64,000 bases of DNA, from positions 62,001 through 126,000 of the forward strand of contig JAILKS010000034.1 in NCBI GenBank assembly GCA_024693715.1, read 5' to 3'. The notes beneath the pieces were generated by a model. That model was not told the DNA's origin and made no database searches. It was given only the letters and a program-made list of their open reading frames with translations. This stretch comes from Treponema sp. (lineage in GTDB: Bacteria; Spirochaetota; Spirochaetia; Treponematales; Treponemataceae). A program made the position numbers and the translations under genes. Shown here in pieces: positions 2,365-33,603 of the stretch. Numbering within the stretch: the first letter of the stretch is position 1; each line of letters starts with the position of its first letter.

Positions 2365-3636
2365 ATGAAAAGATTTAATAATTCAAACTGCTATTGTTTT
2401 TTCTGCGGAAAGCCTGCAGATGCTAACAGAAAATTAATTGCAAGCCCTACCGGTGCATTTATTTGCGACAGATGTATCTGTGTGTGCCAGGAAAAATTAA
2501 ATCTTGAATCAGCAGATCTTTCACCAATTGAATTAGGTGATGTCCCTACTCCACGTGAGCTTAAGGAATATCTTGACAGTTATGTTGTAGGCCAGGATGA
2601 AGCAAAAAAAGTTCTTTCGGTTGCCGTTTACAATCATTATAAGCGAATGTCGAGTGAAAATTTAAGTTCGCTGTCTGATGAAGATGCAGTTGTAATTGAA
2701 AAATCAAATGTTCTTTTGATAGGACCGACAGGAAGCGGAAAAACTCATCTTGCAAAAACACTTGCACAAAAATTAAAAGTTCCGTTTGCCATCGCCGATG
2801 CTACAACCCTTACAGAAGCAGGGTACGTTGGTGAAGATGTAGAAAATGTACTTTTGAAGCTTATCAATGCTGCAGACGGAAATATTGAAGCGGCACAGCG
2901 TGGAATTATCTTCATCGATGAAATAGATAAAATCTCAAGAAAAAGCGAGAACACTTCAATTACCAGAGATGTAAGCGGTGAAGGTGTTCAGCAGGCTTTG
3001 TTAAAAATCATTGAAGGAACTATTGCCAGTGTTCCGCCTCAGGGTGGTAGAAAGCATCCTAATGCGGAAATGCTTCAGATAGATACATCAAACATATTGT
3101 TCATACTTGGCGGTGCATTTGTAGGGCTTGATAAAATAATTGAACAGCGAACAAATGAACGTGCAATGGGCTTTGGTTCAAACGCAGGTCAGCTCACAGA
3201 AGAAGAAAAAATGAATCTTTTGAATCAGACAACACCTGATGATCTTGTAAAATTCGGACTTATTCCAGAATTAATCGGTCGTATGCCTATTACAGTTGCG
3301 TTAAAGGAACTGACAAAGGATGACCTTGTAATGATTCTTACAGAACCTAAAAATGCAATTACAAAACAATTCCAGGCTTCTTTTGCACTTGATGATGTTG
3401 ATCTTTCCTTTGATAAGGATGCAATTGAAGAAATTGCCAATGAAGCAATCAGACAGAAAACAGGAGCCCGTGGATTAAGAACAATAGTTGAAAAGATGCT
3501 TATGGATATAATGTATGAAATACCGGATATTCAGGGCAAACAGCAGATTAACATTTCAAAGGATATTGTTAAACAGAAAAATCATAAAAATATCAGGCAG
3601 CTTTTAAAACCTTTGCTTGAAGATAAAATCAGTTAA
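2365..3636 (+). CDS. clpX: ATP-dependent Clp protease ATP-binding subunit ClpX
   Basis: AAA+ unfoldase that delivers substrates to ClpP. An N-terminal zinc-binding domain has the pattern C11-x2-C14 ... C34-x2-C37. The Walker A motif GPTGSGKT lies near residue 120 and Walker B is [10 protein letters not shown]. The box with [11 protein letters not shown] and PPQGGRKHP is diagnostic of ClpX, as is the later ELIGRMP segment. The 423-residue length is normal. A good Shine-Dalgarno (GGACGGAAGG) precedes the start. The last 8 bases overlap the end of the convergent glycosyltransferase gene. Confidence 0.98.
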
Positions 3637-4747
3637 TTTTCAGAAGGTTGTTTATGCAGCGCAGGGTTTCCTGAACTGTATAATCCCAGCTGAATTGTTT
3701 AGAGCGTTCCAGCCCCTTTGTAATTTTCTTTTTACAGAGGGGTTCGTTTTTTTCTACCTGCTCAAGACAATCTGCAATCTGAACGAGATTATCAGAATCA
3801 AAATAAAAAGGAACATCATCACCAATTTCTTTCAAGGCTCCGCTTACCGAACAACAGATTGGTATCCCACAGGCCATTGCTTCCAGAATAGGAAGTCCCA
3901 CTCCCTCATTTATCGAAGGAAATACACAGGCAGATGCCCCGGAATTAATCTGTGCAAAGCTATCATGAGGAATATAACCGGTAATAAAGATATCACAAGA
4001 ATATTTTGAATTATATGCTGCCTTATGAACAATTTCAGAATAATCACCATCATTTCCAGAAATTACCAGACGATGCGGTGCATTGGTTCTATCTTTAAAA
4101 ATTTCAAAGGCTTTTATCAACTGAATATGTTTTTTATCTTCACTGGACAAAGATGAACCGTATACAAAATAAGGCTTTTTAATTGCGAACGGTTTTATCT
4201 CTACAAATTCAGATTCAAGATCAAGGGACGGAAAGAATTTTTTATGATCTATACCGTTATAAATTACATGTATTTTATTTTCAGGAATATCATTACTGAT
4301 TAAATCTTTTTTCAAGAAATCAGAAGCAGCGATAATAAAATCTACATTTAAAAGACCTTTTTTAATCCTTCTGAACGAACGTTTTCCATTCTGCTTGAGG
4401 ATATTAGATAAAATCGAATTAACAACTGCAACACTTTTTGTTTTAAATTTTACAGGGAATACATTTTCAATCGCAGGAAAAATTACTAAATCATATTTTT
4501 TCTTTTTAAGAAAAGAATGAATTTTATGTTTGTGCCATCTTTTTTCTGCACGCAAAGAATCATCAATATCTATGGAGCTGAAACTGAATTCCTTTTCAGA
4601 TTTATATGTATACCGGTCAAGCTCCGAGCCGAACAGTTCAAAATCAAAAGGAACGTTTCCCGGAAGATGCGAAATAAAATTTATAAGATATGAACCAAAG
4701 CCTGATTTTCCGTGCTCACAACCAAATGTATCTACAGCTATTTTCAT
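3629..4747 (-). CDS. GT4-type glycosyltransferase
   Basis: Family 1/4 (GT-B fold) glycosyltransferase of 372 residues. It probably transfers a sugar from a nucleotide donor to a surface glycan or glycolipid; donor and acceptor are unknown. The C-terminal donor-binding half contains the EGVGLPILE motif (E-x7-E) near residue 281, followed by AMACG, typical of GT4. The start MKIAVDTFG at 4747 is chosen over a longer frame reaching 4843 because it has AAGGA 6 bases upstream and looks like a GT-B N-terminus. It stands alone on the minus strand, overlaps the clpX end by 8 bases and is divergent from the helicase gene. No other polysaccharide genes are adjacent. Confidence 0.85.
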
Positions 4748-4771
4748 AATTGTCCTTTTTATTACATGTAT

Positions 4772-4780
4772 ATTATAGCA
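4772..4780 (-). promoter_or_regulatory. Extended -10 promoter for the glycosyltransferase
   Basis: On the minus strand the sequence reads TGC followed by TATAAT, an extended -10 element, with no good -35 box. The predicted start near 4765 gives a leader of about 18 bases that contains the Shine-Dalgarno. Confidence 0.45.
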
Positions 4781-4811
4781 GATTTTTGTCCAGTGTGCTA
4801 TATTTATTATT

Positions 4812-5930
4812 ATGCAGACAAATTCATTTTCGTTATTAAACAATTCGCTTCAGGAAAAGTTAAAGGCATTAAATATAAATGAACCTACAAAAGTACAGGA
4901 AAAAGTAATTCCACAAATTGCGGCAAAAAAAAATATTTTGTTTCAATCTGAAACAGGAACCGGAAAAACCTTCGCCTATCTTTTACCGGTTGTTAATAGG
5001 ATTGAAGAAGAACAGGATTCTAAACTGAGACTTCTTATTGTTGCACCGACCTTTGAACTTGCATCACAAATAAACGCCGATGCAAAATCAATAACACAAA
5101 GAAAAACAGCATTGTTAATCGGCGGCTCCCCTATCAAACGTCAGATTGAAACTCTTAAAGAAAAACCTCAGATTATCTGTGGCACTGCGGCACGACTCGT
5201 TGAGCTTATCCGCTTGAAAAAACTAAAAATCCAGGATTTATTCACATGTGTATTTGATGAATGCGACAGACTTATAAAAAAAGAATCCTTTGCCGATACC
5301 GAAGAATTAAGAAGTCTTTTACCGAAAGATACACAGCTTATTGGCTGTTCTGCCACCATTAACAATCCGTGTAAATTATTTTTCAATAATGTTGAAACAA
5401 TTGTTCTTCCAAACGAAGATGTCCTGTCAAAAAACATTACTCACTGGGCAATCTACAGTGAAAAACGTGATAAAATCGATACCCTCAGAAAATTTATTTA
5501 TGCAGCAAAACCGGCCAAAGCATTAATCTTTACCTCAAGATCTGATGAAGTAGAAAACATATATACAAAATTAAAATTTAAAAAGATTGAATGTATTGCC
5601 CTTCATGCAAAGGCAGAAAAACAGCTTCGAAAAGCGGCAATAGATAAATTCCGCAATGGGAAAATCAATATACTTATTACAAGCGATTTATGTGCGCGAG
5701 GTCTTGATATAACTGATGTTTCACACATAATTCAGATGGATTTACCGAATGATGATGATTTTTTCATTCATAGAAGCGGACGAACTGCACGTGCCGGAAA
5801 AAGCGGAATTAATGTCGTTATAGGCGATGAATTTGAAATGAAGCATTACGCTCAGCTTGAAAAAAAACTGGGACTTACAGTCTATCCGAAGCAGCTTCAT
5901 AATGGAATGATTACTGGACCGATACTATAA
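4812..5930 (+). CDS. DEAD-box ATP-dependent RNA helicase (short, DECD variant)
   Basis: Superfamily 2 RNA helicase of 372 residues. It carries a Q-motif-like segment near 22-30, Walker A SETGTGKT at 46-53, PTFELA as motif Ia, DECD at about 149-152 in place of DEAD, SAT (motif III), ARGLDI (motif V) and HRSGRTARAG (motif VI). It ends soon after the second RecA domain, so it lacks the basic tail that targets CsdA or DbpA-like proteins to rRNA. A role in RNA unwinding or ribosome assembly is inferred from the family. It is a single gene with no clear Shine-Dalgarno before the ATG. Confidence 0.92.
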   Translation: MQTNSFSLLNNSLQEKLKALNINEPTKVQEKVIPQIAAKKNILFQSETGTGKTFAYLLPVVNRIEEEQDSKLRLLIVAPTFELASQINADAKSITQRKTALLIGGSPIKRQIETLKEKPQIICGTAARLVELIRLKKLKIQDLFTCVFDECDRLIKKESFADTEELRSLLPKDTQLIGCSATINNPCKLFFNNVETIVLPNEDVLSKNITHWAIYSEKRDKIDTLRKFIYAAKPAKALIFTSRSDEVENIYTKLKFKKIECIALHAKAEKQLRKAAIDKFRNGKINILITSDLCARGLDITDVSHIIQMDLPNDDDFFIHRSGRTARAGKSGINVVIGDEFEMKHYAQLEKKLGLTVYPKQLHNGMITGPIL

Positions 5931-5959
5931 ATTACGTTCCACCAAAATGTAAGAATACA

Positions 5960-5988
5960 TTGAAAAAAGCATCTATAATCATTATAAT
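5960..5988 (+). promoter_or_regulatory. Sigma-70 promoter upstream of smc
   Basis: TTGAAA (5960-5965), 17-base spacer, TATAAT (5983-5988). The predicted start near 5995 leaves a leader of about 35 bases. It probably drives the smc to AI-2E transporter operon. Confidence 0.7.
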
Positions 5989-6029
5989 AGATAAGATATT
6001 GAAGATAAGGTTAACGGCGGAAAATACAG

Positions 6030-8987
6030 ATGTTTCTAAAAAGTCTTGACATATACGGTTTTAAATCATTCGCAGATAAGACTCATATTGATTTTGCAGA
6101 AGGAATTACGGCTTTATTAGGTCCGAACGGATGTGGAAAAAGTAATGTCGTAGATGCAATAAAATGGGTTCTTGCCGAAAACCGTTCAAAAAATCTCCGT
6201 GCAGAGAAAATGGAAGACGTTATTTTCAACGGAACAGAACGCCGTCCTGCATTAAATGCCGCTGAGGTTACCCTTACCCTTTCAAATGAAAATGGCCTTT
6301 TACAGATTGCAGATCCTGAAATTGCCATTACAAGACGCCTTTACCGTTCAGGTGACCAGGAATATTTTATAAACAAACGTCCTGCAGGTCCTACAGAAAT
6401 CCGTAAGCTTTTTATGGATACAGGCGTCGGTAAAGCAGCATATTCCGTAATGGAACAGGGAAAGATTGATCAGATTCTGTCATCTAAACCGGAAGACAGA
6501 CGTTATCTTTTTGAAGAGGCTGCCGGTATAAATAAAAGTAAAGCTGATTGTCTCGAAGCAGAAAGAAAATGCGAACAGACTCGTCTTAATATGCAGCAGA
6601 CCGAAATATCTTTGACAGAAATTAAACGTCAGTATGATACTTTAAAGGTACAGTCAGAAAAAACAATCAAATACAGAAAATTTAAAGATGAAATCGAACA
6701 ATATGAACTTGATTTGAACCTTCTGAAATTAAAAGGCTTTGTCCAGGATAAAGCGAGACGTGAAGAAGAGCTTAAATCTGTTCAGGAAAAACGTGATAAA
6801 GTACGAAAGGAAATTGAAGAAATAAATAACACAATTTCTGAAAACATGGATAAAGTAAAATCCATGCAGGAAGTCCTTTATACAAAACAGGCAGAGCTTC
6901 TTAGTATCGGACAGGAAAAGAATGGTAAACTTGAGCTCATAAAACAGCAGAATCAGCAGGCGTTAATAATAAAAGAAAAGATTAATTCTCTTGAAGGACG
7001 CAAATCAACTATTCAGGAAAGAATTGATAATCTTCAGGAAGAAATTGATGAGCATAATGCAAATCTTCATGCAAAAACAAAACAGCTCAATGATATTAAA
7101 ACGAACATTGAATCCTTTAACAATAACATTCAGATTTCCGGTTCACAGATTACAGATAATGACCGTCACACAGATACTCTTAGAATGCAGATTGTTCAAA
7201 AGGAAGAACAACGCAATGAGCTTCAAAAAGAGCTTGCCGCAATTACAGAAGATATAGTATCAAAACTGGATGAAAAACTAAAATCTGCAGGCTTCAGTGA
7301 AAAATCAATGAAGAATGCAAAGGAAGACCTTGATACAAAACTTCAGAAAATCAAAATCTTCATCAACGGAAGAAAAAACATTTTCTCTGATTTTCAAAAG
7401 CAGAAAAAAGATTCAGAAACTGTACTGACAGAAGCGGTAAAAGCATTCAACGAAGCGGAAAATCAGCTTGGTGAACTTGAAAAATCATATGAGACTTATA
7501 TAAAATCTTCACCGGCATTTATCATGGAATTTCTTTCACCACAGGGAATAATGACAAAAAAGCGCTCTGTAGATGAAAAAATCAGTGAAAATATCAAACA
7601 GACACAAGACCTTACAAAACAGATAGATGACCTTAAGGCGGCAAATACTGAGCTTTCAAAGAAAATTGAAGAATACAAGGAACTGTTGAATAAATTTAAA
7701 GTAAATGAAGTTCAGATGCAGGAACAGATTAAAGCCGCACAGGATCAGACATCTACCTTAAACAGACAGCTTGCAAGTGAAATGGCTACGTTACAAGAAA
7801 CAGAAGACGAACTTTTTACTGAAAACAAACGTTCACAGGAGCTTACAGAACAGATTAATACATATCAGGATGAACTTGCAGAAATTGAATATCGCGGTCA
7901 AAAGCTTGCACAGGAAATGTCTAAAATTGATGAAGAGATTGCAAAGGCTAATGACAGCGTGAGCGGTAAAAATGATAAGCTTGAAAGAAAGCGTGAAGAT
8001 CAGAATAAATATCAGGAACAATACGAAAAACTTACTTTAAGTCTTAATTCATCAGAGAATGATATAAAAAACATCAAACAGAATTTCCAGGACCAGCATT
8101 CAATCGATTTAATGCAGCATGAAGAAAGAATGTACAAAATAACAACACCTGTTTCGGAAATCAGAGATAAGCTTTTTACAGCGAAAAAGAATTTCTCTGG
8201 ACTTGGTACAGTAAACCTCATGGCTCCTGAAGAATTCAATGAAGTAAAAGACCGCTATGAAAAGATGAATAAAAACTACATGGATATTCAGAAATCTCTT
8301 GAAAACTTAATCCGTGTAAATGAGGAAATCAAATCTAAATCTGCCGAAATGTTCCTTGAAACATACAATCAGATTAAAAAGAATTTCCACAATATGTTCA
8401 GAAGACTATTCAACGGTGGTCGTGCAGAGCTTAAGCTTGCAGATCCTCAGAATATTTTACAGTCCGGTATTGATATTTACGCACAGCCTCCTGGAAAAAA
8501 ACTTGAAAATATCTCGCTTCTTTCTGGCGGTGAAAAAACAATGACGGCTGTTGCTCTGTTATTCGCTACATATCAGGTACGTCCAAGTCCTTTCTGTCTC
8601 CTCGATGAAATTGATGCTGCCCTTGATGACAAAAACGTTTCAAGTTTCGTAACTACTCTTGAAAGCTTTGCAAACGTTAGTCAGTACATCATTATTACTC
8701 ATAACAAAAAGACTGTAATGGGCGCTTCAACAATGCTTGGAATTACAATGGAAGAATCTGGTGTAAGTAAAATAATTGCACTCAAGCTTGGACAGGAAAT
8801 CGCAAAGGAAAAAGCTGAACCTCCGGTTGATTTCAAGGAGGAGGATGTTCCTGAGGAAGAAGGAATCGTAGTTCCACAAAGACCACCAAAACGAATCCAT
8901 AATGCAGATGGAACAATTACTGATCCGGTAATCGAAAATTTAAATAAAGAAAAAAATCAACAGGAAACCAAAAAAGAAGATAAATAA
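6030..8987 (+). CDS. smc: Chromosome partition/condensin protein SMC (short form)
   Basis: SMC ATPase that compacts and segregates the chromosome with ScpA/ScpB (neither is in this window). The N-terminal head has Walker A GPNGCGKS at 31-38. The C-terminal head has the signature LSGGEK near residue 832 and Walker B FCLLDEIDAALD near 855-866. Long Glu/Lys/Gln-rich coiled coils lie between. At 985 residues it is about 200 shorter than typical bacterial SMC (around 1,180). The only non-coil central segment I see is about residues 475-515, with no recognisable globular hinge. The next gene starts 6 bases after the stop. Confidence 0.95.
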   Translation: MFLKSLDIYGFKSFADKTHIDFAEGITALLGPNGCGKSNVVDAIKWVLAENRSKNLRAEKMEDVIFNGTERRPALNAAEVTLTLSNENGLLQIADPEIAITRRLYRSGDQEYFINKRPAGPTEIRKLFMDTGVGKAAYSVMEQGKIDQILSSKPEDRRYLFEEAAGINKSKADCLEAERKCEQTRLNMQQTEISLTEIKRQYDTLKVQSEKTIKYRKFKDEIEQYELDLNLLKLKGFVQDKARREEELKSVQEKRDKVRKEIEEINNTISENMDKVKSMQEVLYTKQAELLSIGQEKNGKLELIKQQNQQALIIKEKINSLEGRKSTIQERIDNLQEEIDEHNANLHAKTKQLNDIKTNIESFNNNIQISGSQITDNDRHTDTLRMQIVQKEEQRNELQKELAAITEDIVSKLDEKLKSAGFSEKSMKNAKEDLDTKLQKIKIFINGRKNIFSDFQKQKKDSETVLTEAVKAFNEAENQLGELEKSYETYIKSSPAFIMEFLSPQGIMTKKRSVDEKISENIKQTQDLTKQIDDLKAANTELSKKIEEYKELLNKFKVNEVQMQEQIKAAQDQTSTLNRQLASEMATLQETEDELFTENKRSQELTEQINTYQDELAEIEYRGQKLAQEMSKIDEEIAKANDSVSGKNDKLERKREDQNKYQEQYEKLTLSLNSSENDIKNIKQNFQDQHSIDLMQHEERMYKITTPVSEIRDKLFTAKKNFSGLGTVNLMAPEEFNEVKDRYEKMNKNYMDIQKSLENLIRVNEEIKSKSAEMFLETYNQIKKNFHNMFRRLFNGGRAELKLADPQNILQSGIDIYAQPPGKKLENISLLSGGEKTMTAVALLFATYQVRPSPFCLLDEIDAALDDKNVSSFVTTLESFANVSQYIIITHNKKTVMGASTMLGITMEESGVSKIIALKLGQEIAKEKAEPPVDFKEEDVPEEEGIVVPQRPPKRIHNADGTITDPVIENLNKEKNQQETKKEDK

Positions 8988-8993
8988 CAGTTT

Positions 8994-9338
8994 ATGGAAA
9001 TAAAGCAGTTTGCAGAAAATAATAAAATCAAATTATTACTCATCATTCTTGCAGCAGTTTTTTTAATGCTGATTATAACTCTTATTTCAGTTTCTGTATC
9101 AAAACATAAAAAAGAAGCACCGGATTATTCCAGAAAGAAAATCATATTAACTCAAGAGCAGCTTATTCCAGATGGACCGGAAGTTCAAAGAGATTACAAT
9201 ATAACAAGAAAAGAAAAAGATAAATGGTCAAAAGAAGAAATTGAGGAATGGTTTACAGTACCGAATGCAAATGACATTAAGTCTCTTCAAACGGCAGATG
9301 ATAATCTTATTTCTCAAATTCTGGGAGTGGCGCCATGA
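8994..9338 (+). CDS. Small single-pass membrane protein, unknown
   Basis: A 114-residue protein with one hydrophobic segment at about 14-34 after a short charged N-terminus, suggesting an inner-membrane anchor with a periplasmic C-terminal part. The rest is charged, with Lys/Glu-rich stretches and no motif I recognise. It starts 6 bases after smc and its end overlaps the next gene by 4 bases (ATGA), so it is translationally coupled inside the smc operon. The tight coupling to the following lipoprotein suggests a shared envelope role, but this is inference only. Confidence 0.75.
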   Translation: MEIKQFAENNKIKLLLIILAAVFLMLIITLISVSVSKHKKEAPDYSRKKIILTQEQLIPDGPEVQRDYNITRKEKDKWSKEEIEEWFTVPNANDIKSLQTADDNLISQILGVAP

Positions 9339-10924
9339 AAAAAATTTTTTGTTTAATATCAATTTCCGTTTTATTTGCTTCATGTGCTTCAACTTGGTTT
9401 AACAAAAATAAAAATGCTGATAAAAACAAGGAAGAAGGAACAGAAGAAAACATTCCTGTCTCATCCATCGAAATACCTCAAGCTCCGGAAGAAATTGAAG
9501 AGCCCCTTGTACGAGATTTAGAAACATCTTCACAAACAAATAATAAAGTGCAGGATAAATCATCACCAGAAAAAAATACACAAAAAACATCTGACATAAA
9601 ATCAAGTAATGTTAAAGCTGATAATACAAAAACAAACGAAGTAAAAACTGCAGATAATAAAACAGAAAAAACCGTCACTGATACAAAAAAAACACAAGCC
9701 TCTCCTTCATCTGCTAATAATACAAAAGCTTCAAATCAGACTTCTAACAGTAATTCAAAAACAACGAATCAGACAGCAGCATCAAGTTCAAAGACAACTA
9801 ATCAGACAGCAGCAAATAATAATAAATCAAATAATCCGCCAAATTATGCAAATCTGAATAATAAACAAAATCAGTCTGCAAAAAATGAAAGCACACAAAA
9901 AACACCTGACGTTTCAAACACAAAAACTGATGCAGCATCCCAGCCGGAAAAACAAAATACGTCTTCTTCTTCAAAGGATACGGTAAATAACAGGACAAAT
10001 GACAGTTATACAAAGATGACAGGAAAAGATTCCGGAACGACAAAAGGCAATGCAGAATATCCCGGTTTTGTAAAAGATGACATTGAACCTCCGAAAGAAG
10101 AAATGAACTATACACAGATTTACGAATCAAATGATTCGGCTGTTCCGTCAAGATCTGTAACTTTAAAACGAGGCGAACTTCTTCAGGTTATATATCCGGG
10201 TTCTGGATGGATTTATCTTGGTTCGTTATCTGAATATAACAATCTTGAAAGCCGGGGACGTAAGGTTGGCGATACACAGACAATATATACCCTGTATGCA
10301 AAGGATAAAGGAACTCAACTTCATCATTTTTACAAGACAGATAATCTTACCGGTAATTACATAGATGATTATCTTGAGGTTATTGTTCTGGATATAAAGG
10401 GTTCAATAACAACAAGCGTAAAAGCTCCTGATTATACAGGCTTTGTTCCAAAACAACCAGACAGACCGGCACTTGCTTCAACAAAAATTATTACAGATGA
10501 AAATCAACCCAAAAAAGATGAAATTGAAGTAATAAATGCCAATCAAAATGAAATACCGGATATTTCACAAATTATCGATGAAAAACCACAGGAAGAATCG
10601 ATACTCGAACAATCTGTTCAAATAAACACGGAAGAACTTTCTGCCAGTGAACTTTTGAAACTTACGAAGGAATACATTTCAAACAAGGATTACATCAATG
10701 CAAACAAGACCGTTAATCTTTTTTTAACAAAAGCTACTGACAGAACTGATGAAGGACTTTATCTCAAAGGGCAGATTCTTGAGGCAAACAGCAGCCTTAA
10801 GGATATAAAATCAGCTATTGAAACATACGAAAATCTTGTCCATAATTATCCTTCAAGTGCATTATGGGAAGATGCAAACAAACGAATAAAATATTTAAAA
10901 AGATTTTACATAGATATTTATTAA
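9335..10924 (+). CDS. Lipoprotein with low-complexity linker and C-terminal TPR-like domain
   Basis: A 529-residue exported protein. The signal peptide ends in a lipobox-like LFASC with Cys17 as the lipidation site. Residues about 25-245 are a Thr/Asn/Ser/Lys/Gln-rich linker that includes short repeats such as KTTNQTAASSS. A middle domain follows at about 260-360 (unrecognised, beta-rich by eye). The last 90 residues look like one or two TPR helices resembling YbgF/BamD-type lipoproteins (Y-x-NKDY-x-A..., then LKGQILEAN). The C-terminal similarity suggests a scaffold or assembly role at the envelope. It overlaps the small membrane protein by 4 bases; serS starts 24 bases later. Confidence 0.8.
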   Translation: MKKIFCLISISVLFASCASTWFNKNKNADKNKEEGTEENIPVSSIEIPQAPEEIEEPLVRDLETSSQTNNKVQDKSSPEKNTQKTSDIKSSNVKADNTKTNEVKTADNKTEKTVTDTKKTQASPSSANNTKASNQTSNSNSKTTNQTAASSSKTTNQTAANNNKSNNPPNYANLNNKQNQSAKNESTQKTPDVSNTKTDAASQPEKQNTSSSSKDTVNNRTNDSYTKMTGKDSGTTKGNAEYPGFVKDDIEPPKEEMNYTQIYESNDSAVPSRSVTLKRGELLQVIYPGSGWIYLGSLSEYNNLESRGRKVGDTQTIYTLYAKDKGTQLHHFYKTDNLTGNYIDDYLEVIVLDIKGSITTSVKAPDYTGFVPKQPDRPALASTKIITDENQPKKDEIEVINANQNEIPDISQIIDEKPQEESILEQSVQINTEELSASELLKLTKEYISNKDYINANKTVNLFLTKATDRTDEGLYLKGQILEANSSLKDIKSAIETYENLVHNYPSSALWEDANKRIKYLKRFYIDIY

Positions 10925-22272: not shown

Positions 22273-23568
22273 ATGAAAAACATTCAGAACAAATGGTTAA
22301 GAGGAGCAATTCCTGCCCTTCTTCTTCATTGCAGTATCGGTACGGTATACTGCTGGTCAATCTTCAGCCAGGAAATTGCTGACTACATCGGTTTTTCAAA
22401 AGGTGCAGTAGAATGGGCTTTCAGCTTTGCAATTTTCTTCCTTGGAATGTCAGCTGCTTTCTTAGGCAGCCTTGTAGAAAAGAATATTCATAAGTCATCA
22501 CTTATAGCAGCAATCACATTTGCTCTTGGTATGGCTGGAACAGGCTTCTTTATCTGGTACGGAGGAACTCACCAGCACAGCGTACTTTCATTAATCGGTA
22601 TTTATATTTCATACGGATTTATAATGGGAATAGGACTTGGAACAGGTTATCTTTCTCCTGTAAAAACTCTGATGCTCTGGTTTCAGGATAAAAAGGGTCT
22701 TGCAACAGGTCTTGCAGTAGCAGGTTTCGGTGCTGCTAAAGCAATTGCTTCTCCTATCATGAGCAGAATGCTTAAAGGTCTTGGAGATGGTGGTGTTTAT
22801 AAAATGTTCTATATTCTTGCACTGGTTTATTTTGTAATGATGATGCTTGGTCACTTTATGCTTGCAAAACCGGAAGGCTGGATAGAGCCACAGAAAAAAT
22901 CAAAGGAAGAAGGAATTATTGCTACACTTAAAACAGAACCTATCGCTTCTTACATAGGTATCTGGCTCATGTTCTATATCAACATTACGTGCGGTCTTGC
23001 AATTATTTCTCAGGAAAAAATGATTGTAAAATGCGTAGGACTTGGCGCTTTTGCAGGAATTATTTCCACTATTTCTGCTTTGTTCAATGCAGGCGGACGT
23101 TTAGGTTTTTCTGCCTGGGCAGATAAAATGAAAGACAGAAATACTGTTTATAAATTAATTTTTGCACTTTCAATAATTTCTACATTAATTGTTTTATTCA
23201 CAAAGGGAATTGCAAATGGTGCCGGAAACGCAGCACTCATTATTTTTGTACTTGCATTAATATTTATCGTAAATGCAGGATACGGCGGCGGATTCTCTAA
23301 TGTTCCTACCCTTCTTTCAGATCACTACGGAATGGGTAACATTTCAGCAATTCATGGAATTACTCTTTCTGCATGGGCATTTGCAGGTTTAACTGGAAAT
23401 CAGATGGCATCATACATCGTAAACCATACAGGTAGCTTTATCGAAGTTGCAGGCGTAAAAGCAAATCCGACAGGATATCAGAACGTACTTATTGTAACTA
23501 CAATTTTATATGCAGTTGCAATGTGTTTGAGTCTTTTCCTTGTACGACCGATGAAAAAAGCAAAATAA
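22273..23568 (+). CDS. MFS transporter, OFA (oxalate/formate antiporter) family
   Basis: A 431-residue integral membrane protein with about 12 hydrophobic segments. The N-terminus (GTVYCWSIFSQEI) and the first-loop region followed by GTGYLSPVKT match the OFA branch of the major facilitator superfamily, whose best-known member is the Oxalobacter oxalate:formate antiporter OxlT. Many OFA members carry other monocarboxylates, and no formate- or oxalate-metabolism gene is adjacent, so the substrate is uncertain. It has its own promoter and a likely terminator located inside the end of the convergent gene. Confidence 0.88.
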   Translation: MKNIQNKWLRGAIPALLLHCSIGTVYCWSIFSQEIADYIGFSKGAVEWAFSFAIFFLGMSAAFLGSLVEKNIHKSSLIAAITFALGMAGTGFFIWYGGTHQHSVLSLIGIYISYGFIMGIGLGTGYLSPVKTLMLWFQDKKGLATGLAVAGFGAAKAIASPIMSRMLKGLGDGGVYKMFYILALVYFVMMMLGHFMLAKPEGWIEPQKKSKEEGIIATLKTEPIASYIGIWLMFYINITCGLAIISQEKMIVKCVGLGAFAGIISTISALFNAGGRLGFSAWADKMKDRNTVYKLIFALSIISTLIVLFTKGIANGAGNAALIIFVLALIFIVNAGYGGGFSNVPTLLSDHYGMGNISAIHGITLSAWAFAGLTGNQMASYIVNHTGSFIEVAGVKANPTGYQNVLIVTTILYAVAMCLSLFLVRPMKKAK

Positions 23569-23590: not shown

Positions 23591-26500
23591 CTAATCATTC
23601 AGGCGGATTAAATTCATAACAAGAAGATATGAATTGTCCGCCTGTTTTGTTGAATTTATGATGAGAGAGATTTTATGATATTCCTTATTCTTAAAGCGGC
23701 TTTTGAATTCACACATAAAAGGAGTATCAGGTTCAGAAAGTACATGCGCTGCTGCATCTGAGAATATTCTTGCTTTATCCTTTGGATGAAGTAAATTATA
23801 TAAATCTTTTTCACTCCATCCTTTTACTTCTTCTTCCGTATAGCCGGTAAAGTGTATGAATTCTTTATTTACCTTGATGATACGAAGCTCGAACTGCTGT
23901 TTAGAAAGATGCTTCTCGTCAAATTTTACAAGACAGATAAGCTGACCAATTTCATCATTATCAGATTCCTGTTTAAGCTGATTTGACGTAATTCCCAGAG
24001 TTCCTTCAGATATTTTTTCATCCGTAACATCAGATAAAAGAACATACAAAAGGTGATTCGAATCATTATTTCCTATTTTCCAGATTATTGATTTTATCCA
24101 AAGAATGCTGTTTTCCGGATATTTTTTGTTCTGAGTAACACAGAATTCTTCCTTTTGAGAAACAGAAGCGACTCTAAGGATGCTTTTATAATCATTATTT
24201 CCATCTCTTTTGAGGAAGTTTTTAAGGTATTTTCTGATTTCCCTATTATCCTTGTTTTCAAGTCCAAATAATCTAAGACATTTCTGATTACATCGTAAAA
24301 GTTCAACAGAATCTGTAGTATCATTAAATTCAAGAATTGCAGCAGGTCCGGTAAACTGTTCAAACATGATGCTTTCATTCGAATCGGGATTAAAGAAATT
24401 TCTGAAATCAAAGAAAGTGCTCTGTTTATGATTTGCCTCGACCTTCGAAGTTCCATTTGATTCAAGAAGCGCTACAAACTGTTTTGAGCTTACAGGACGT
24501 GAAAAATAAAATCCCTGTAAAATATCACATCCGATTCCTTTTAAGAAAGAAACCTTTTCGTTTGACTCAACTCCTTCTGCAACCGTCAATAAATCGAGAC
24601 TATGAGCCATTCGTATTATTGAAGATACAATGTTACCACCCTTATCCATATTAGATTCATCACGAATAAATCCCATGTCAAGCTTAAGAATATCAATTGA
24701 AATATCCTTAAGAGTATTTAAAGACGAATAGCCGCTTCCAAAATCATCCATGGCGATTTTATAGCCAAGATCCTTGATTTTATTTATTCGCTCAATAATT
24801 TCATTTGAATCACTTATATAAGCGCTTTCTGTAATTTCAAAATGAATATATTCGGTAGGAATTTTATATTCATCTGTAAGACGTTTGATTGAATAAATTA
24901 AAGCATCTGATTCAAGACTGACACGTGAAATATTAATTGAAATCGGAACAAGTGGTATTCCTGATTCCATCCAGTGCTTTATAAGTGAGAAGGTTTTCTG
25001 CCATATAATTTTATCAAGAACACGAATAAAACCGTTTTTTTCTGCGACAGGAATAAATACAGATGGAAGAAGAATAGTACCGTCAGGCTTTTTCCATCGG
25101 CACAACGCTTCAGCACCGACAATTTTAAATGTCGAAGAACTGTATTGCGGTTGAAAATACATAATAAATTCATCGTTATCAAGAGCGCTTTGCATCTGTG
25201 CGGTGATTTCTGCTTCCTGAAGCATTTTATCACGATATTCCTTAGTAAAAACAGAAAATGTATTCTGAATTGAAGAAACCTGCTTATCCATAGCAATTGT
25301 CGCACAACCGAGAAGATACATAAGGTCTTCATCAGGACTTAAAGAATAAGTTATTCCAAAACGCATGGTTACTGGAATTTTCATGCCAAGAGAAGAACAA
25401 TCAAAATATTTTATATCTCTTAAACGCTGAAGATTTTCCGGTGTATTTTCTACAAAAAGCATGAAAGAACCGCCGCCTAGTCTTCCGCAAATACCGGTTG
25501 AACCTGCAACCTTTTGAAGATTACTTGAAATAATTCGCAAAACATTATCACCAATAGCAGAGCCGTACAAATCATTAATAACTTTAAAGCGGTTAATATC
25601 ACCTGTACATAAAAGAAAAGACTGATTTGGATTTTTCTGAAGAATGTTTGATGATTCCTGAATAAAAGTCGGACGGTTAGGAATTCCTGTAAGAATATCA
25701 ATTTTCAGACGATATTCCATTTCATCCTGCATGTAATGAATACAGTTTTCCTTTTTGTTATATCCGCATGCGATTGCCCTTGCCATTTCCTTGCAGCTTT
25801 TATAACCACACTGACCGCAGTTTATAGAGCGTTTTTCTTCAGTGGTCTTAAGCATTGCATTAAAAATCTCATTAAGAACATTTTTCGGTATAGTAAACGG
25901 CTGTGTGTATCTGTCTATATAAATTCGTTTAAAGTCATCGACATTTAACCCTTTAAAAAGCTCATTAAGAATATCCTGATTTTTTTCCCAGCTGTTTGCA
26001 CGGTTAAAAATTGATTTAGTTTCTTTATGAAGCTTATTTATATTTGAAACAATTTGAGAAGGCTTATAATACTTTTTATCTACACCTGCACATTCATAAC
26101 ATCCATTTAAGCAGGCTATTACTTCAGAATAAAGCGGTTGATCTTCCATGTATTCTTCACTCATCGAAAGACCAAGCATCTGGAAGGTATTAGGAGAAAG
26201 TCCAGTTAACTCCTGAATATATTCACCATAAGGTAAAAACAAAGATAAAAGGTCACGTACAGAACCCGGTAAGGTAGTAACGGCACCAATTCCTGTACTT
26301 ACAAGATCAGGTTCGGCACTTAAGCCTTCAAAGCGTTCTATATTGAAATTCAACCTGTCGATATAATTCATCATATGTTCGAAGGTCAAATTATAGTCAA
26401 TATAGTTATTTGTAGATTTAGATAATATTTCATCCTTTGCGGCAATACATGGACCGATATAAACAAACTTATTCGTATCTTTCAAATATTTTTTTGCATA

Positions 26501-27040
26501 GATTGCGGTACACATCATCGGAGAGTGAACAGGAATAAGTTTATTTCTCAAATACGGATAGAATAATTCAATATTATTAACAAGGGCTGGACAATTGGGA
26601 GAAATAAAAGCTCTTTCTACAGGCGGAAGCTTCTGGGCTTTTTTGATATAATCTATCGTTGCCCATAATGAGATTTCTGCTCCATAAGATGATATATATA
26701 TTTTATCAAGTCCCTGCTGCTTTAAATATCCAAGTATTTTATTAGAGTCATCTCCATAAACCATATAAAAGGAGGGAGAAATAATTGCAGATATTTTTTC
26801 ACCGCTTTCAAGTGCCCTGAAAAAATCAGAATCATCATCTATGAAATGACGTGCTTCCCGAACACAAGATTTTATACATTTACCGCAATGATTACACTTT
26901 ACCGGATCAACCAGAACAGAAGATTTACCGTTTTTAAAAACAGAAATATTCGCACCGATAATATTACAAAGAGAAATGCATTTATTACATGCTATACATT
27001 TATCATCTGTATAAATAAGCCCATTATTAAATCTTGCCAT
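23591..27040 (-). CDS. [FeFe]-hydrogenase-like sensor fused to GGDEF (degenerate), EAL and PAS domains
   Basis: An 1149-residue cytoplasmic signalling protein. In order: two [4Fe-4S] ferredoxin motifs (Cys15, 18, 21, 25 and Cys49, 52, 55, 59); an [FeFe]-hydrogenase large-subunit C-terminal domain (about 80-320) with H-cluster-type cysteines at 150 (SPNCPAL), 198 (GPCIAAKDE), 310 and 314 (ACLNGC); a small Fe-S domain with CGQCGYKSC at 408-416; GGDEF (about 445-600) reading GGGSF at 522-526, so cyclase activity is unlikely; EAL (about 605-860) with EALCRW at 644-649, DDFGSGYSSL and AEGVE, so c-di-GMP phosphodiesterase activity is plausible; and one or two PAS-like domains to the end. The hydrogenase loops differ from catalytic hydrogenases (TSCCP, MPCxxK, GGGQP) and resemble sensory ones. 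It follows the FIST gene by 24 bases. Confidence 0.9.
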   Translation of the reverse strand: MARFNNGLIYTDDKCIACNKCISLCNIIGANISVFKNGKSSVLVDPVKCNHCGKCIKSCVREARHFIDDDSDFFRALESGEKISAIISPSFYMVYGDDSNKILGYLKQQGLDKIYISSYGAEISLWATIDYIKKAQKLPPVERAFISPNCPALVNNIELFYPYLRNKLIPVHSPMMCTAIYAKKYLKDTNKFVYIGPCIAAKDEILSKSTNNYIDYNLTFEHMMNYIDRLNFNIERFEGLSAEPDLVSTGIGAVTTLPGSVRDLLSLFLPYGEYIQELTGLSPNTFQMLGLSMSEEYMEDQPLYSEVIACLNGCYECAGVDKKYYKPSQIVSNINKLHKETKSIFNRANSWEKNQDILNELFKGLNVDDFKRIYIDRYTQPFTIPKNVLNEIFNAMLKTTEEKRSINCGQCGYKSCKEMARAIACGYNKKENCIHYMQDEMEYRLKIDILTGIPNRPTFIQESSNILQKNPNQSFLLCTGDINRFKVINDLYGSAIGDNVLRIISSNLQKVAGSTGICGRLGGGSFMLFVENTPENLQRLRDIKYFDCSSLGMKIPVTMRFGITYSLSPDEDLMYLLGCATIAMDKQVSSIQNTFSVFTKEYRDKMLQEAEITAQMQSALDNDEFIMYFQPQYSSSTFKIVGAEALCRWKKPDGTILLPSVFIPVAEKNGFIRVLDKIIWQKTFSLIKHWMESGIPLVPISINISRVSLESDALIYSIKRLTDEYKIPTEYIHFEITESAYISDSNEIIERINKIKDLGYKIAMDDFGSGYSSLNTLKDISIDILKLDMGFIRDESNMDKGGNIVSSIIRMAHSLDLLTVAEGVESNEKVSFLKGIGCDILQGFYFSRPVSSKQFVALLESNGTSKVEANHKQSTFFDFRNFFNPDSNESIMFEQFTGPAAILEFNDTTDSVELLRCNQKCLRLFGLENKDNREIRKYLKNFLKRDGNNDYKSILRVASVSQKEEFCVTQNKKYPENSILWIKSIIWKIGNNDSNHLLYVLLSDVTDEKISEGTLGITSNQLKQESDNDEIGQLICLVKFDEKHLSKQQFELRIIKVNKEFIHFTGYTEEEVKGWSEKDLYNLLHPKDKARIFSDAAAHVLSEPDTPFMCEFKSRFKNKEYHKISLIINSTKQADNSYLLVMNLIRLND
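23601..23650 (+). terminator. Probable terminator of the MFS gene, inside the 3' end of the convergent gene
   Basis: AGGCGGA (23601-23607) pairs with TCCGCCT (23637-23643), and AATTCAT (23611-23617) with ATGAATT (23629-23635), giving a 14-bp interrupted stem. GTTTTGTT follows on the plus strand. The hairpin lies in the last codons of the hydrogenase/EAL gene. A separate AT-only hairpin at 23570-23589 is weaker. Confidence 0.5.
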
Positions 27041-27064: not shown

Positions 27065-28180
27065 TTATTCAAATATTGCAAGAGCCATTGTTAAATTAAG
27101 ATGGATAAAATCAAATTGTTCGCCATAACCGGAAAGACATATAAAGTTTTTATATGAATCCCGAAGCTGCTTTTCAAAGGGTTCAAGAAGCTCTTTTGTT
27201 TCAAACAACTTTGTTCTTGCGATACAATTAATAGCTATTGCAAATGAAGGATTCGAAACCTGGGCTAAAGTTTCTTCTTTCGTAGTAGACCAGACCTTCT
27301 GTACATCATCAAGATCAATTAATGAAACCTTTGTCTGATTAAATATCTGTGCAAGATACTGAATAGAATTATCTTTATTCACACAATTAGGCTCTGTCAA
27401 AAAAACTTCATCGCCAATAAGTCTTCCAACCGGATATCTTTTTATATTATCTGCAAAACGCTCTACATTCATCCCAAGTGCCTGAGAAAGTGCTTCTGCT
27501 GCAGGTTTACCGTCATATTCATAGACAATTCTTTTTTCACAATCTACTTCAGTAGCGGTAAAAATTTTATTGGACGGTTTATACAATGTTTCTTTATAAA
27601 GGGCTATTCTTCCATTCAAATTATGAATAAGTACAAAAACACATGTATTTTTATAGATTTCACCATTTAATGAAACTATTGAACGGTCTTCCCCATCCTT
27701 CGCTCCACTGGTACCTCCAATTAAAGGAATACCCATTCCACTTAAAACCTCATCGAAAGTATCAAGTACAAGTTCTTCTGCATAGGAAAATGCCGTAGAA
27801 AATTCAAGACAACAGGTGTTTGTACATACAGAAAGTGATGCAACTGCTTCTTTGATATGCCTTATATAATTTGCAGGATGATGATCTATTTCAAAAACTG
27901 CACCAGCTACACATTCAATGCCGGAAAAAACTGACAGTGCGGCAAAGCCGGTCTTTGAAATTGAATTATTACAAATGTTCATATAAGTTGTAGAACCAAT
28001 TGTAATAGCCTCTGGATAACGTTTTTTAATATTTTCTGCATAATACCAGAACACATCTACATCGGACGTAAAAACAATGAGCTTTGGAGTTTTTCCTACA
28101 CTGTCTATCTGTAAACAGACTTCCTCAAAAGCCTTTTCATAATTCTGATTATCTGAAAATGCCGTTATCGATCTACTCAC
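27065..28180 (-). CDS. FIST domain sensor protein
   Basis: A 371-residue protein with the FIST N and FIST C layout: the N-terminal part (about 30-225) contains YPEAITIGSTT and GIPLIGGTSGAKDG, and the C-terminal part (about 230-365) contains PVGRLIGDEVF and CLSGYGEQF. FIST domains are proposed small-ligand (possibly amino-acid) sensors found beside or fused to chemotaxis, histidine-kinase and c-di-GMP proteins. The start is GTG at 28180 with AGGGAG 8 bases upstream, overlapping the TAG of the upstream gene by one base (TAGTG). The hydrogenase/EAL gene follows 24 bases later, which suggests a shared signalling unit. Confidence 0.88.
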   Translation of the reverse strand: MSRSITAFSDNQNYEKAFEEVCLQIDSVGKTPKLIVFTSDVDVFWYYAENIKKRYPEAITIGSTTYMNICNNSISKTGFAALSVFSGIECVAGAVFEIDHHPANYIRHIKEAVASLSVCTNTCCLEFSTAFSYAEELVLDTFDEVLSGMGIPLIGGTSGAKDGEDRSIVSLNGEIYKNTCVFVLIHNLNGRIALYKETLYKPSNKIFTATEVDCEKRIVYEYDGKPAAEALSQALGMNVERFADNIKRYPVGRLIGDEVFLTEPNCVNKDNSIQYLAQIFNQTKVSLIDLDDVQKVWSTTKEETLAQVSNPSFAIAINCIARTKLFETKELLEPFEKQLRDSYKNFICLSGYGEQFDFIHLNLTMALAIFE

Positions 28181-31584: not shown

Positions 31585-33603
31585 TTATTTAATCCTTCGT
31601 ACAAATGCATCCTTATAGCCGTAAGCCTTGAATCTTTCAAGAACTGCACCGTATTCATCTACGGTTAAAGGACCGATTAATACCTGACTGCTGCCATTTG
31701 ATAACTGAATGACAACAACAGGATAATTTTTACCGTATTTTGAAATTATTTCTTTAATCAGTTCTTCATTTTTCAAAACAGCTATTTGAATATAATATTT
31801 GTTTGAAATCAATTTATCACTGACTTCGACAGGTGCATTATTTTCAGAAAGATCTATTGCCGGTTCTGCTTCCATCTCTTCAATTACATCTTCAATCTGT
31901 GGAACAAGAACTTCAACTTCATTTTTCTGAATTTCAGGTTCAATAATATTGATTGGCTCTTCAACTGTCTGTTCAGTTTCTTCTTCTACAATTTCTTCTT
32001 CAGCAGGAACTTCTTCAACCGGAAGCTCTTCTGCAGGTTCTTCAAGAGAAATGGCTTCTTCAACTTCATGAACATTCTCAGAAGATGGCTCTACAGTTTC
32101 TTCAACCGGTGTTTCTTCTGTAACTTCTTCCTGTGGAGTCTCTTCTTCAACAGGAAGCTCTTCTGCAGGTTCTACAATGACTTCTTCTTCTACAGGAGTT
32201 TCTTCAATCACTTCTTCTACAGGATTTTCTTCCTCAACCGGAGTTTCTTCGTCCGGTTCTTCTGCAGGTACTTCATCAGAAGGTTCTTCAAGAGAAATTG
32301 CTTTCTCAGCTTCTTCTTCTACAGGTTCAAGTTCCTCTGCCTCAAACTCTTCGGCTTCTACTGGCTCTTCTTCAACAATCTCTTCTGCAGAAGATTCTTC
32401 TGTTATTTCTTCCTGCGAAGTATCTTCTTCAACCGGAGTTTCTTCTTCAGGTTCTTCAGCGATAACTTCTTCCTGATTTTCTTCTTCTATAGGTTCAAGC
32501 TCATCTGCCTCAAACTCTTCTGCTTCTACAGGCTCTTCTTTAACAATTTCTTCTGCAGAAGATTCTTCCATTACTTCTTCCTGCGACGTCTCTTCTTCAA
32601 CCGGAGTTTCTTCTTCAGGTTCTTCAGCAATTACTTCTTCCCGATTTTCTTCTTCTACAGGCTCAAGTTCATCTGCCTCAAACTCTTCTGCTTCTACAGG
32701 TTCTTCTTCAACAATCTCTTCTGCAGGAGCTTCTTCTATTATTTCTTCCTGTGGAGTCACTTCTTCAACCGGAGTTTCTTCTTCAGGTTCTTCAGCAAAT
32801 ACTTCTTCCTGATTTTCTTCTTCTACAGGCTCAAGTTCATCTGCCTCAAACTCTTCTGCTTCTACAGGTTCTTCTTCAACAATCTCTTCTGCAGGAGCTT
32901 CTTCTATTATTTCTTCCTGTGGAGTTTCTTCTTCAACCGGTGATTCTTCTTCTGGTTCTTGTACAGGAGCTTCTTCTTCAGGCTCTTCTAAAGGTGTTTC
33001 TTCAATTTCCTGTGGAACTACAACTTCTTCTTCTATTATTTCTTCCTGTGGTTCAAAATCAACAGTTTCTTCATCATCATTTTCTTCAATTATGATTGTT
33101 TCAACTGGTTCTGAAGCTTCCGGCTCATCATCAATAAGCCATTCAACTTCATCTTCTTCCTTCGGTAAAACCTGATTATTTGTTTTTGGAGAAGAGTTTG
33201 TATTTTGCGGTAAATCTGAACTGTTAGCCTTTGCAATTACCGCAGAACCGTAAACCCGTTCATCCTGATTAGAACGCTTTGTAATTTTTACAATATTATT
33301 TGCATTAACATCGATTCCGATTGCCTTTGCCGCTTCCGGAGAAAGCATGATGGCTACACCTTCCGATGGATCTAATGCGCCGATTACAAGAATATCAACA
33401 GTCGTTTCACCGCTGATATTAGTTACACTGATGATATCACCAGGAAGATAACCTACAGTCTTTGCAAATAATCCCTGTGGAAATACACCTTCATCTACTA
33501 CAATGGCACGCCCGTCAAGCGAAGGACTGAGAGAATATACTTTTACACATAATGAAATCAAAAGAAAAAATATTGATAAAAACTCGAACTTTCTCTTTCT
33601 CAT
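31585..33603 (-). CDS. Exported SPOR-domain protein with long Glu/Pro repeat region
   Basis: A 672-residue protein. The signal peptide is about 1-25. An N-terminal domain (about 28-120, with GFLPGDIISVTN-like strands reading GYLPGDIISVTN) may be RlpA-like. Residues about 150-570 are a highly acidic Glu/Pro/Val region built partly from 56-residue tandem repeats. A C-terminal SPOR domain (about 600-672; starts KYYIQIAVLKNE, ends DAFVRRIK) is the type that binds denuded peptidoglycan at septa. A role in cell division or cell-wall binding is inferred from SPOR. The upstream 167-residue exported gene ends 14 bases before its start. Confidence 0.85.
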   Translation of the reverse strand: MRKRKFEFLSIFFLLISLCVKVYSLSPSLDGRAIVVDEGVFPQGLFAKTVGYLPGDIISVTNISGETTVDILVIGALDPSEGVAIMLSPEAAKAIGIDVNANNIVKITKRSNQDERVYGSAVIAKANSSDLPQNTNSSPKTNNQVLPKEEDEVEWLIDDEPEASEPVETIIIEENDDEETVDFEPQEEIIEEEVVVPQEIEETPLEEPEEEAPVQEPEEESPVEEETPQEEIIEEAPAEEIVEEEPVEAEEFEADELEPVEEENQEEVFAEEPEEETPVEEVTPQEEIIEEAPAEEIVEEEPVEAEEFEADELEPVEEENREEVIAEEPEEETPVEEETSQEEVMEESSAEEIVKEEPVEAEEFEADELEPIEEENQEEVIAEEPEEETPVEEDTSQEEITEESSAEEIVEEEPVEAEEFEAEELEPVEEEAEKAISLEEPSDEVPAEEPDEETPVEEENPVEEVIEETPVEEEVIVEPAEELPVEEETPQEEVTEETPVEETVEPSSENVHEVEEAISLEEPAEELPVEEVPAEEEIVEEETEQTVEEPINIIEPEIQKNEVEVLVPQIEDVIEEMEAEPAIDLSENNAPVEVSDKLISNKYYIQIAVLKNEELIKEIISKYGKNYPVVVIQLSNGSSQVLIGPLTVDEYGAVLERFKAYGYKDAFVRRIK
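32310..32956 (-). repeat. 168-bp tandem repeat (about four copies) coding for 56-residue Glu/Pro units
   Basis: Landmark sequences such as CTCAAACTCTTC recur at 32341, 32509, 32677 and 32845, exactly 168 bases apart, and ACCGGAGTTTCTTC recurs at 32432, 32600 and 32768. The encoded unit reads roughly EEETPVEE ... EEPVEAEEFEADELEPVEEE. The first and last copies are more divergent. The array can change copy number by slippage without a frameshift. Confidence 0.9.

Follow-up and report, generated by a model that had tools for sequence, protein, structure and literature searches.

A sensory hydrogenase module fused to a c-di-GMP phosphodiesterase in Treponema: a probable iron-sulfur redox sensor with a FIST partner

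What kind of signal enters a protein in which the hydrogenase fold is joined, in a single chain, to the domains of cyclic di-GMP (c-di-GMP) turnover? The question is raised by a gene in a stretch of 64,000 nucleotides from the genome of a gut Treponema sp. (assembly GCA_024693715.1, contig JAILKS010000034.1, positions 62,001 to 126,000; this whole stretch is the window), whose product, P0001, starts with a sensory [FeFe]-hydrogenase (HydS) module and continues into GGDEF, EAL and PAS domains. A sequence-only reading of this DNA had proposed that H2, redox or CO/O2 state could control c-di-GMP breakdown. We favour, with a probability of roughly 0.55, a HydS-derived iron-sulfur (Fe-S) redox sensor which works with a FIST partner and would control c-di-GMP hydrolysis. 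The redox and O2 part of the proposal is thereby kept, and sensing of redox state, O2 or nitric oxide (NO) by [4Fe-4S] clusters fits the sequences better, while sensing of H2 or CO through an H-cluster is doubtful because the diiron pocket is eroded and most genomes with the fusion lack the maturases HydG and HydF.

The open reading frame and the Pfam matches bear out the single chain and the domains claimed for it, and add the strand, which had not been given (Table 1). Above their cut-offs are Fe_hyd_lg_C (6e-25), the Fe-S family PF04060 (8e-7), GGDEF (1e-19), EAL (4e-65), PAS_8 and PAS_3/PAS_9; the Fer4 models on residues 14–61 fall slightly below theirs, but the ferredoxin cysteines are nonetheless complete (8/8). 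P0001 thus has the ferredoxin sites, H-domain and PF04060 site of a group C HydS module and is a variant of the sensory [FeFe] hydrogenases. PAS had been predicted correctly as present, but there are two such domains at the C-terminus and not one. An AlphaFold2 model, calculated from an alignment of the window protein and its relatives, has a mean predicted local distance difference test score (pLDDT) of 82.6 and a predicted template modelling score (pTM) of 0.49; since the latter is low, the placement of the domains relative to each other is unreliable. Taken separately, residues 1–377 match the hydrogenase folds of CpI and CbA5H (VIA Z 33-37) and residues 607–863 match EAL folds (Z ~32).

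Table 1. Positions in the window of the fusion gene, its domains and the adjacent FIST gene.
Feature	Position	Strand	Details
HydS-GGDEF-EAL-PAS-PAS fusion gene (P0001)	23591..27040	minus	ATG at 27040; 1149 aa; internal stops 0
Two [4Fe-4S] ferredoxin sites	26816..27040	minus	residues 1-75; Cys 15, 18, 21, 25 and 49, 52, 55, 59
[FeFe]-hydrogenase H-domain, PF02906	26099..26797	minus	residues 82-314; ligand Cys C150, C198, C310, C314; K358 equivalent Ala201
PF04060 [4Fe-4S] site	25739..25825	minus	residues 406-434; Cys 408, 411, 416, 433
Degenerate GGDEF	25280..25702	minus	residues 447-587; GGGSF at 522-526 (25463..25477); GTP-contact motif GDINRFKVIND retained
EAL phosphodiesterase domain	24494..25198	minus	residues 615-849; catalytic motifs intact
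PAS domain 1	24011..24373	minus	residues ~890-1010; PAS_8 match at 899-932
PAS domain 2	23642..23887	minus	residues 1052-1133; PAS_3/PAS_9 match at 1052-1133
FIST-FIST_C protein	27065..28180	minus	371 aa; directly upstream of fusion gene, gap 24 nt; probable partner

The fusion is not an artefact. The same domain order, sought in other genomes as had been suggested with the first reading, was found in about 30 of the 146 Treponema-level genomes searched (including three from a second fusion clade), and also in 25 named Treponema/Spirochaetes contigs, a set which comprises largely the same species and so is not independent of the first. Across the phylum, close matches are present in 10/296 genomes from three genera. 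The proteins differ in length according to how many PAS domains (0, 1 or 2) they have at the C-terminus. The closest ortholog (L043) is 87% identical to P0001 over the whole length, and the ratio of nonsynonymous to synonymous substitution rates (dN/dS) between the two is low in every domain measured (0.066 for the whole protein, 0.059 for the H-domain and 0.036 for EAL). Recurrence in about 30 species, the full-length ortholog and the low dN/dS together exclude a frameshift or an assembly join, which had been named as what could undo the finding, and the direct fusion of a HydS-type module to a c-di-GMP module in Treponema is supported. Contamination of the contig is unlikely as well, since the genes flanking the ortholog are the same.

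The clusters are kept in full. All 16 cluster cysteines (eight from the ferredoxin sites, four from PF04060 and four from the [4Fe-4S]H site) are invariant in 27/27 fusion proteins, and the H-cluster ligands C150, C198, C310 and C314, equivalent to C300, C355, C499 and C503 of CpI, are so in all 26 members that were aligned (CpI numbers were transferred by motif, with a Treponema group A enzyme as intermediary). The pocket that would hold the diiron unit, [2Fe], has fared differently. The equivalent of CpI K358, the cyanide-binding lysine, is Ala in P0001 and Lys in 16/26 fusion proteins, compared with 55/55 other HydS and, among the catalytic-type enzymes, 16/16 of group A and 17/17 of group B. 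At the A230 position P0001 has Ser, and only 2/26 fusion proteins retain Ala, the others carrying S, D or E, against 53/55 other HydS and 33/33 catalytic-type enzymes (groups A and B). The F417 equivalent is Thr and that of P231 is retained in P0001, so that the residues expected around [2Fe] (K358 and the A230-P231 region) are incomplete. Met at the Q325 position is found in four of the 26 fusion proteins, P0001 included, but in 55/55 other HydS. Over the conserved columns, retention in the fusion clade averages 0.34 for the pocket and 0.67 for other non-Cys positions (p=0.009); overall divergence in the clade is also somewhat higher than in other HydS, with a mean identity of 0.42 versus 0.50. 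On loss of H-cluster ligands, seen beforehand as a danger to the hydrogenase assignment, the outcome is mixed: the four [4Fe-4S]H cysteines stand and the surroundings of the diiron unit do not.

The distribution of maturases points the same way. HydG and HydF are each present in 32/146 Treponema genomes, and both are absent from 21 of the 27 fusion genomes of the main clade, among them G015, G077 (2 contigs) and G105, each 99% complete; HydG is absent too from two further genomes of 99% completeness (G226 and G415). Among working H-domains that lack [2Fe], the closest analogue is the eukaryotic hydrogenase-like protein Nar1/CIAO3, which combines a proximal cluster with a [4Fe-4S]H site but has no [2Fe], in an organism without maturases (PMC12621388). 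It differs from P0001 in being an Fe-S trafficking factor rather than a signalling enzyme and in having no c-di-GMP domains. By analogy, a narrower form of our favoured reading, which we advance tentatively and at somewhat below even odds, is that P0001 is a maturase-independent, diiron-free sensor of four Fe-S clusters that directly drives c-di-GMP breakdown, with a FIST protein that has gained a Cys-ligated metal or Fe-S site of its own: a Nar1-like fate, in signalling.

Several observations weigh against a diiron-free sensor. K358 persists in the 16 members noted above, and C503, the bridge to the diiron unit, is retained everywhere, but the same cysteine also ligates the cubane. The pocket residues are those expected from the CpI and D. 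desulfuricans structures, mapped by motif. Mutant data for K358 were not found in the literature searched. An association between loss of K358 and absence of HydG, which would be expected, is unsupported (Fisher p=0.67). Some of the missing maturases are gaps in binning, because G034, G074 and others have a canonical HydA without HydG. Finally, the H-cluster could be made in the window species, since its own genome encodes HydE, HydG and HydF (C16) and a group A6-like HydA, whose C-terminal end at a contig edge (L002:1297-1686) is the only other Fe_hyd_lg_C match in that genome.

These last genes speak for the alternative that P0001 is a true sensor of H2 (or CO), in which HydEFG load a full H-cluster despite Ala at K358 and H2 turnover controls the EAL domain. 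The intact ligand cysteines are consistent with it, as is TmHydS of T. maritima, which takes up the H-cluster with its ligands and the [2Fe]-hydrogen-bonding residues kept and departs from the canonical set at C299, M353 and M497 (PMC10055695), so that sensory enzymes tolerate the loss of these three. The same three are replaced in P0001 and the four ligand cysteines kept, and some relatives combine a nearly full pocket with HydG (G007, with APPMK, and G337). However, P0001 departs further than TmHydS, being altered at K358, A230 and F417 all together, its sister in G034 (87% identical) has the same pocket in a genome where HydG and HydF were not found, and maturases are missing from most fusion genomes. 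The protein of the window species may sense H2, though this is the less likely case; as a full account of P0001 we regard H2 sensing as unlikely.

The second gene of the system encodes a FIST protein, with FIST_N (75.1 bits) and FIST_C (37.6 bits) both above the Pfam cut-off. Modelled with a pLDDT of 93, it matches FBXO22 structures in their FIST part, and a search of the PDB returned no sequence match for it. FIST is found in 26/27 fusion genomes versus 65/119 others (p=1.5e-5) and is adjacent to the fusion gene in 20/27. The 27 linked FISTs share cysteines at positions 123 (in 25), 124 (27), 180 (23), 214 (24) and 319 (27). In 29 unlinked Treponema FISTs the corresponding residues at the first four positions are F, A, A and, for the most part, P/V/I, and only C319 is shared. 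No His is invariant among the linked proteins. With these cysteines specific to the clade, a metal, Fe-S or thiol site seems more likely than the classical heme site of NosP.

Could FIST be the real sensor, of NO or heme as in NosP, with the hydrogenase half serving mainly as a structural or electron-supply module of an EAL protein? There are precedents for EAL enzymes under FIST control, by NosP with NO and by CdpA with heme (PMC8846402), and NosP systems have a histidine kinase partner (PMC12570481). The P0001 locus resembles the NosP two-component and CdpA systems in that FIST is encoded together with a c-di-GMP enzyme, and in one subclade (L053, L056, L057, L060 and L061, ~3100-4866) a hybrid membrane histidine kinase-receiver gene overlaps or abuts FIST on its upstream side. 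The co-occurrence and adjacency of the two genes also agree with this idea. We nevertheless consider it improbable: a merely structural hydrogenase half would be hard to reconcile with strict conservation of its 16 cluster cysteines and a dN/dS of 0.059, and the FIST protein, with its special cysteines and its hydrogenase-EAL neighbour, scores 110.5 bits with the NosP model NF041558, for which the cut-off is 450.

The output of P0001 is most likely c-di-GMP hydrolysis. As had been claimed, the EAL domain is intact: P0001 and all Treponema members have its catalytic and metal motifs (EAL, N, E, DDFG, K, E, Q), which are lost only in one Firmicutes row, L109. The replacement of the GGDEF signature by GGGSF also holds, and no member of the main clade retains the cyclase motif, so that, by its motif, the P0001 GGDEF domain cannot be a cyclase. 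The GDxNxxKxIND segment is mostly retained across the main clade, and the degenerate domain would suit GTP binding without catalysis. Four matches to PilZ receptors are present in the genome. The degenerate GGDEF and the destroyed motifs of the distant L109 would also accord with a non-catalytic c-di-GMP receptor of the FimX or LapD kind, but this is very improbable, given the complete EAL motifs in P0001 and all Treponema members and the closest structures to the EAL part, which are active phosphodiesterases (MorA among them) and rank before FimX and LapD. The L109 locus (4850-9429, Lachnospiraceae bacterium G11) is in itself a FIST and fusion pair in which all the EAL motifs are destroyed (GGEVKCHW, ISDFG), as in a receptor or a decaying copy.

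Returning to the Fe-S redox sensor, we propose that P0001 is a cytoplasmic sensor-phosphodiesterase on a group C HydS scaffold. Its H-domain would bind only the [4Fe-4S] cluster, as in Nar1, without a CO/CN diiron unit, and the [4Fe-4S] chain would report the redox state of ferredoxin or damage by O2 or NO. The signal would reach the GGDEF-EAL pair, primed by GTP, by way of the PF04060 segment and helix 434–446, and FIST may add a second signal via its own Cys-ligated metal or thiol site. c-di-GMP would fall or rise with the signal (we propose that it is lower in the on state), and motility and attachment would then track redox state.

How did such a protein arise? A tree built from 92 HydS modules places P0001 within a clade of 32 rows (Shimodaira–Hasegawa-like approximate likelihood ratio test, SH-aLRT, 100), made up throughout of GGDEF-EAL fusions from Treponema and two Firmicutes. 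A second group of such fusions, from the Treponema genomes G004, G059 and G124, lies inside Lachnospiraceae-type HydS and has a near-canonical GGDEF and pocket, and a third, from Desulfosporosinus (L118 and L122), is placed elsewhere. Because the GGDEF-EAL fusions occupy separate positions, the coupling of HydS to c-di-GMP has originated repeatedly, at least three times as judged from this tree. One Selenomonas HydS carries GGDEF alone, and the outputs of the remaining HydS scanned are methyl-accepting chemotaxis proteins (MCP) or histidine kinase-receivers. The plasmid collection searched contains only distant HydS relatives, with less than 60% identity.

Group C HydS (TmHydS; HydDB C1-C3; M2f) share with P0001 the ferredoxin sites, the H-domain, the Cx2Cx4CxnC Fe-S site and PAS. 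HydDB divides [FeFe] group C into kinase-, chemotaxis- and phosphatase-linked types and has no c-di-GMP type. P0001 shows none of the C1-C3 linkages, its output being GGDEF-EAL and its neighbour FIST, and it differs further from HydS in having PAS after EAL and an eroded K358/A230 pocket. From the side of the output, the best sequence and fold matches are sensor-GGDEF-EAL phosphodiesterases of the DosP/MorA type, in which an active EAL is likewise preceded by a degenerate or regulatory GGDEF; DosP, however, senses O2 by heme-PAS, and P0001 has a hydrogenase-derived Fe-S module instead. Diguanylate cyclase-linked [NiFe] group 2c hydrogenases are proposed to act through c-di-GMP (PMC5037454), but these are unrelated [NiFe] enzymes, cyclase-linked and not fused to a phosphodiesterase. 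A broad census of c-di-GMP stimuli does not name a hydrogenase or Fe-S input. We found no description of a HydS-GGDEF-EAL fusion in the titles and abstracts that were accessible to us, which is weak evidence because subscription papers are mostly outside this coverage. The earlier remark that the fusion is rarely described is therefore fair for the literature, but in genomes the fusion itself is not rare.

Beyond FIST there is no wider neighbourhood conserved across the fusion loci. A major facilitator superfamily transporter of the oxalate/formate-lactate family (22273-23568) lies downstream of the fusion gene, convergent with it, and recurs in six related loci, genes for 2-oxoacid:ferredoxin oxidoreductase lie downstream of the fusion in another subclade, and a 410-residue open reading frame upstream of FIST, present again only in L043 and L063, is not counted as part of the system. 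A scan for promoters and terminators gave no signal above shuffles. At 31585-33603 the window also encodes a protein with a SPOR domain and long repeats that are acidic and rich in Glu, opposite which lies a spurious Phe-rich open reading frame (32068-32943).

Separately from the fusions, Fe_hyd_lg_C proteins, many of them ~490-510 residues long and group B-like, are present in 124/146 Treponema genomes, far more than encode HydG. Several near-complete HydG-less genomes (L153, L155, L156 and L157) have an L1 motif with CCS in place of CCP, and L3 VMSC. From these sequences, the group B-like H-domain proteins of HydG-less Treponema may also be maturase-free.

The fusion family would tie the fermentative redox (or H2) status of rumen and gut spirochaetes directly to the messenger for motility and attachment, in a setting where H2 traffic feeds methane formation. 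With intact-pocket and eroded-pocket members side by side, the same family offers a test case for how a hydrogenase may become a sensor of something other than H2.

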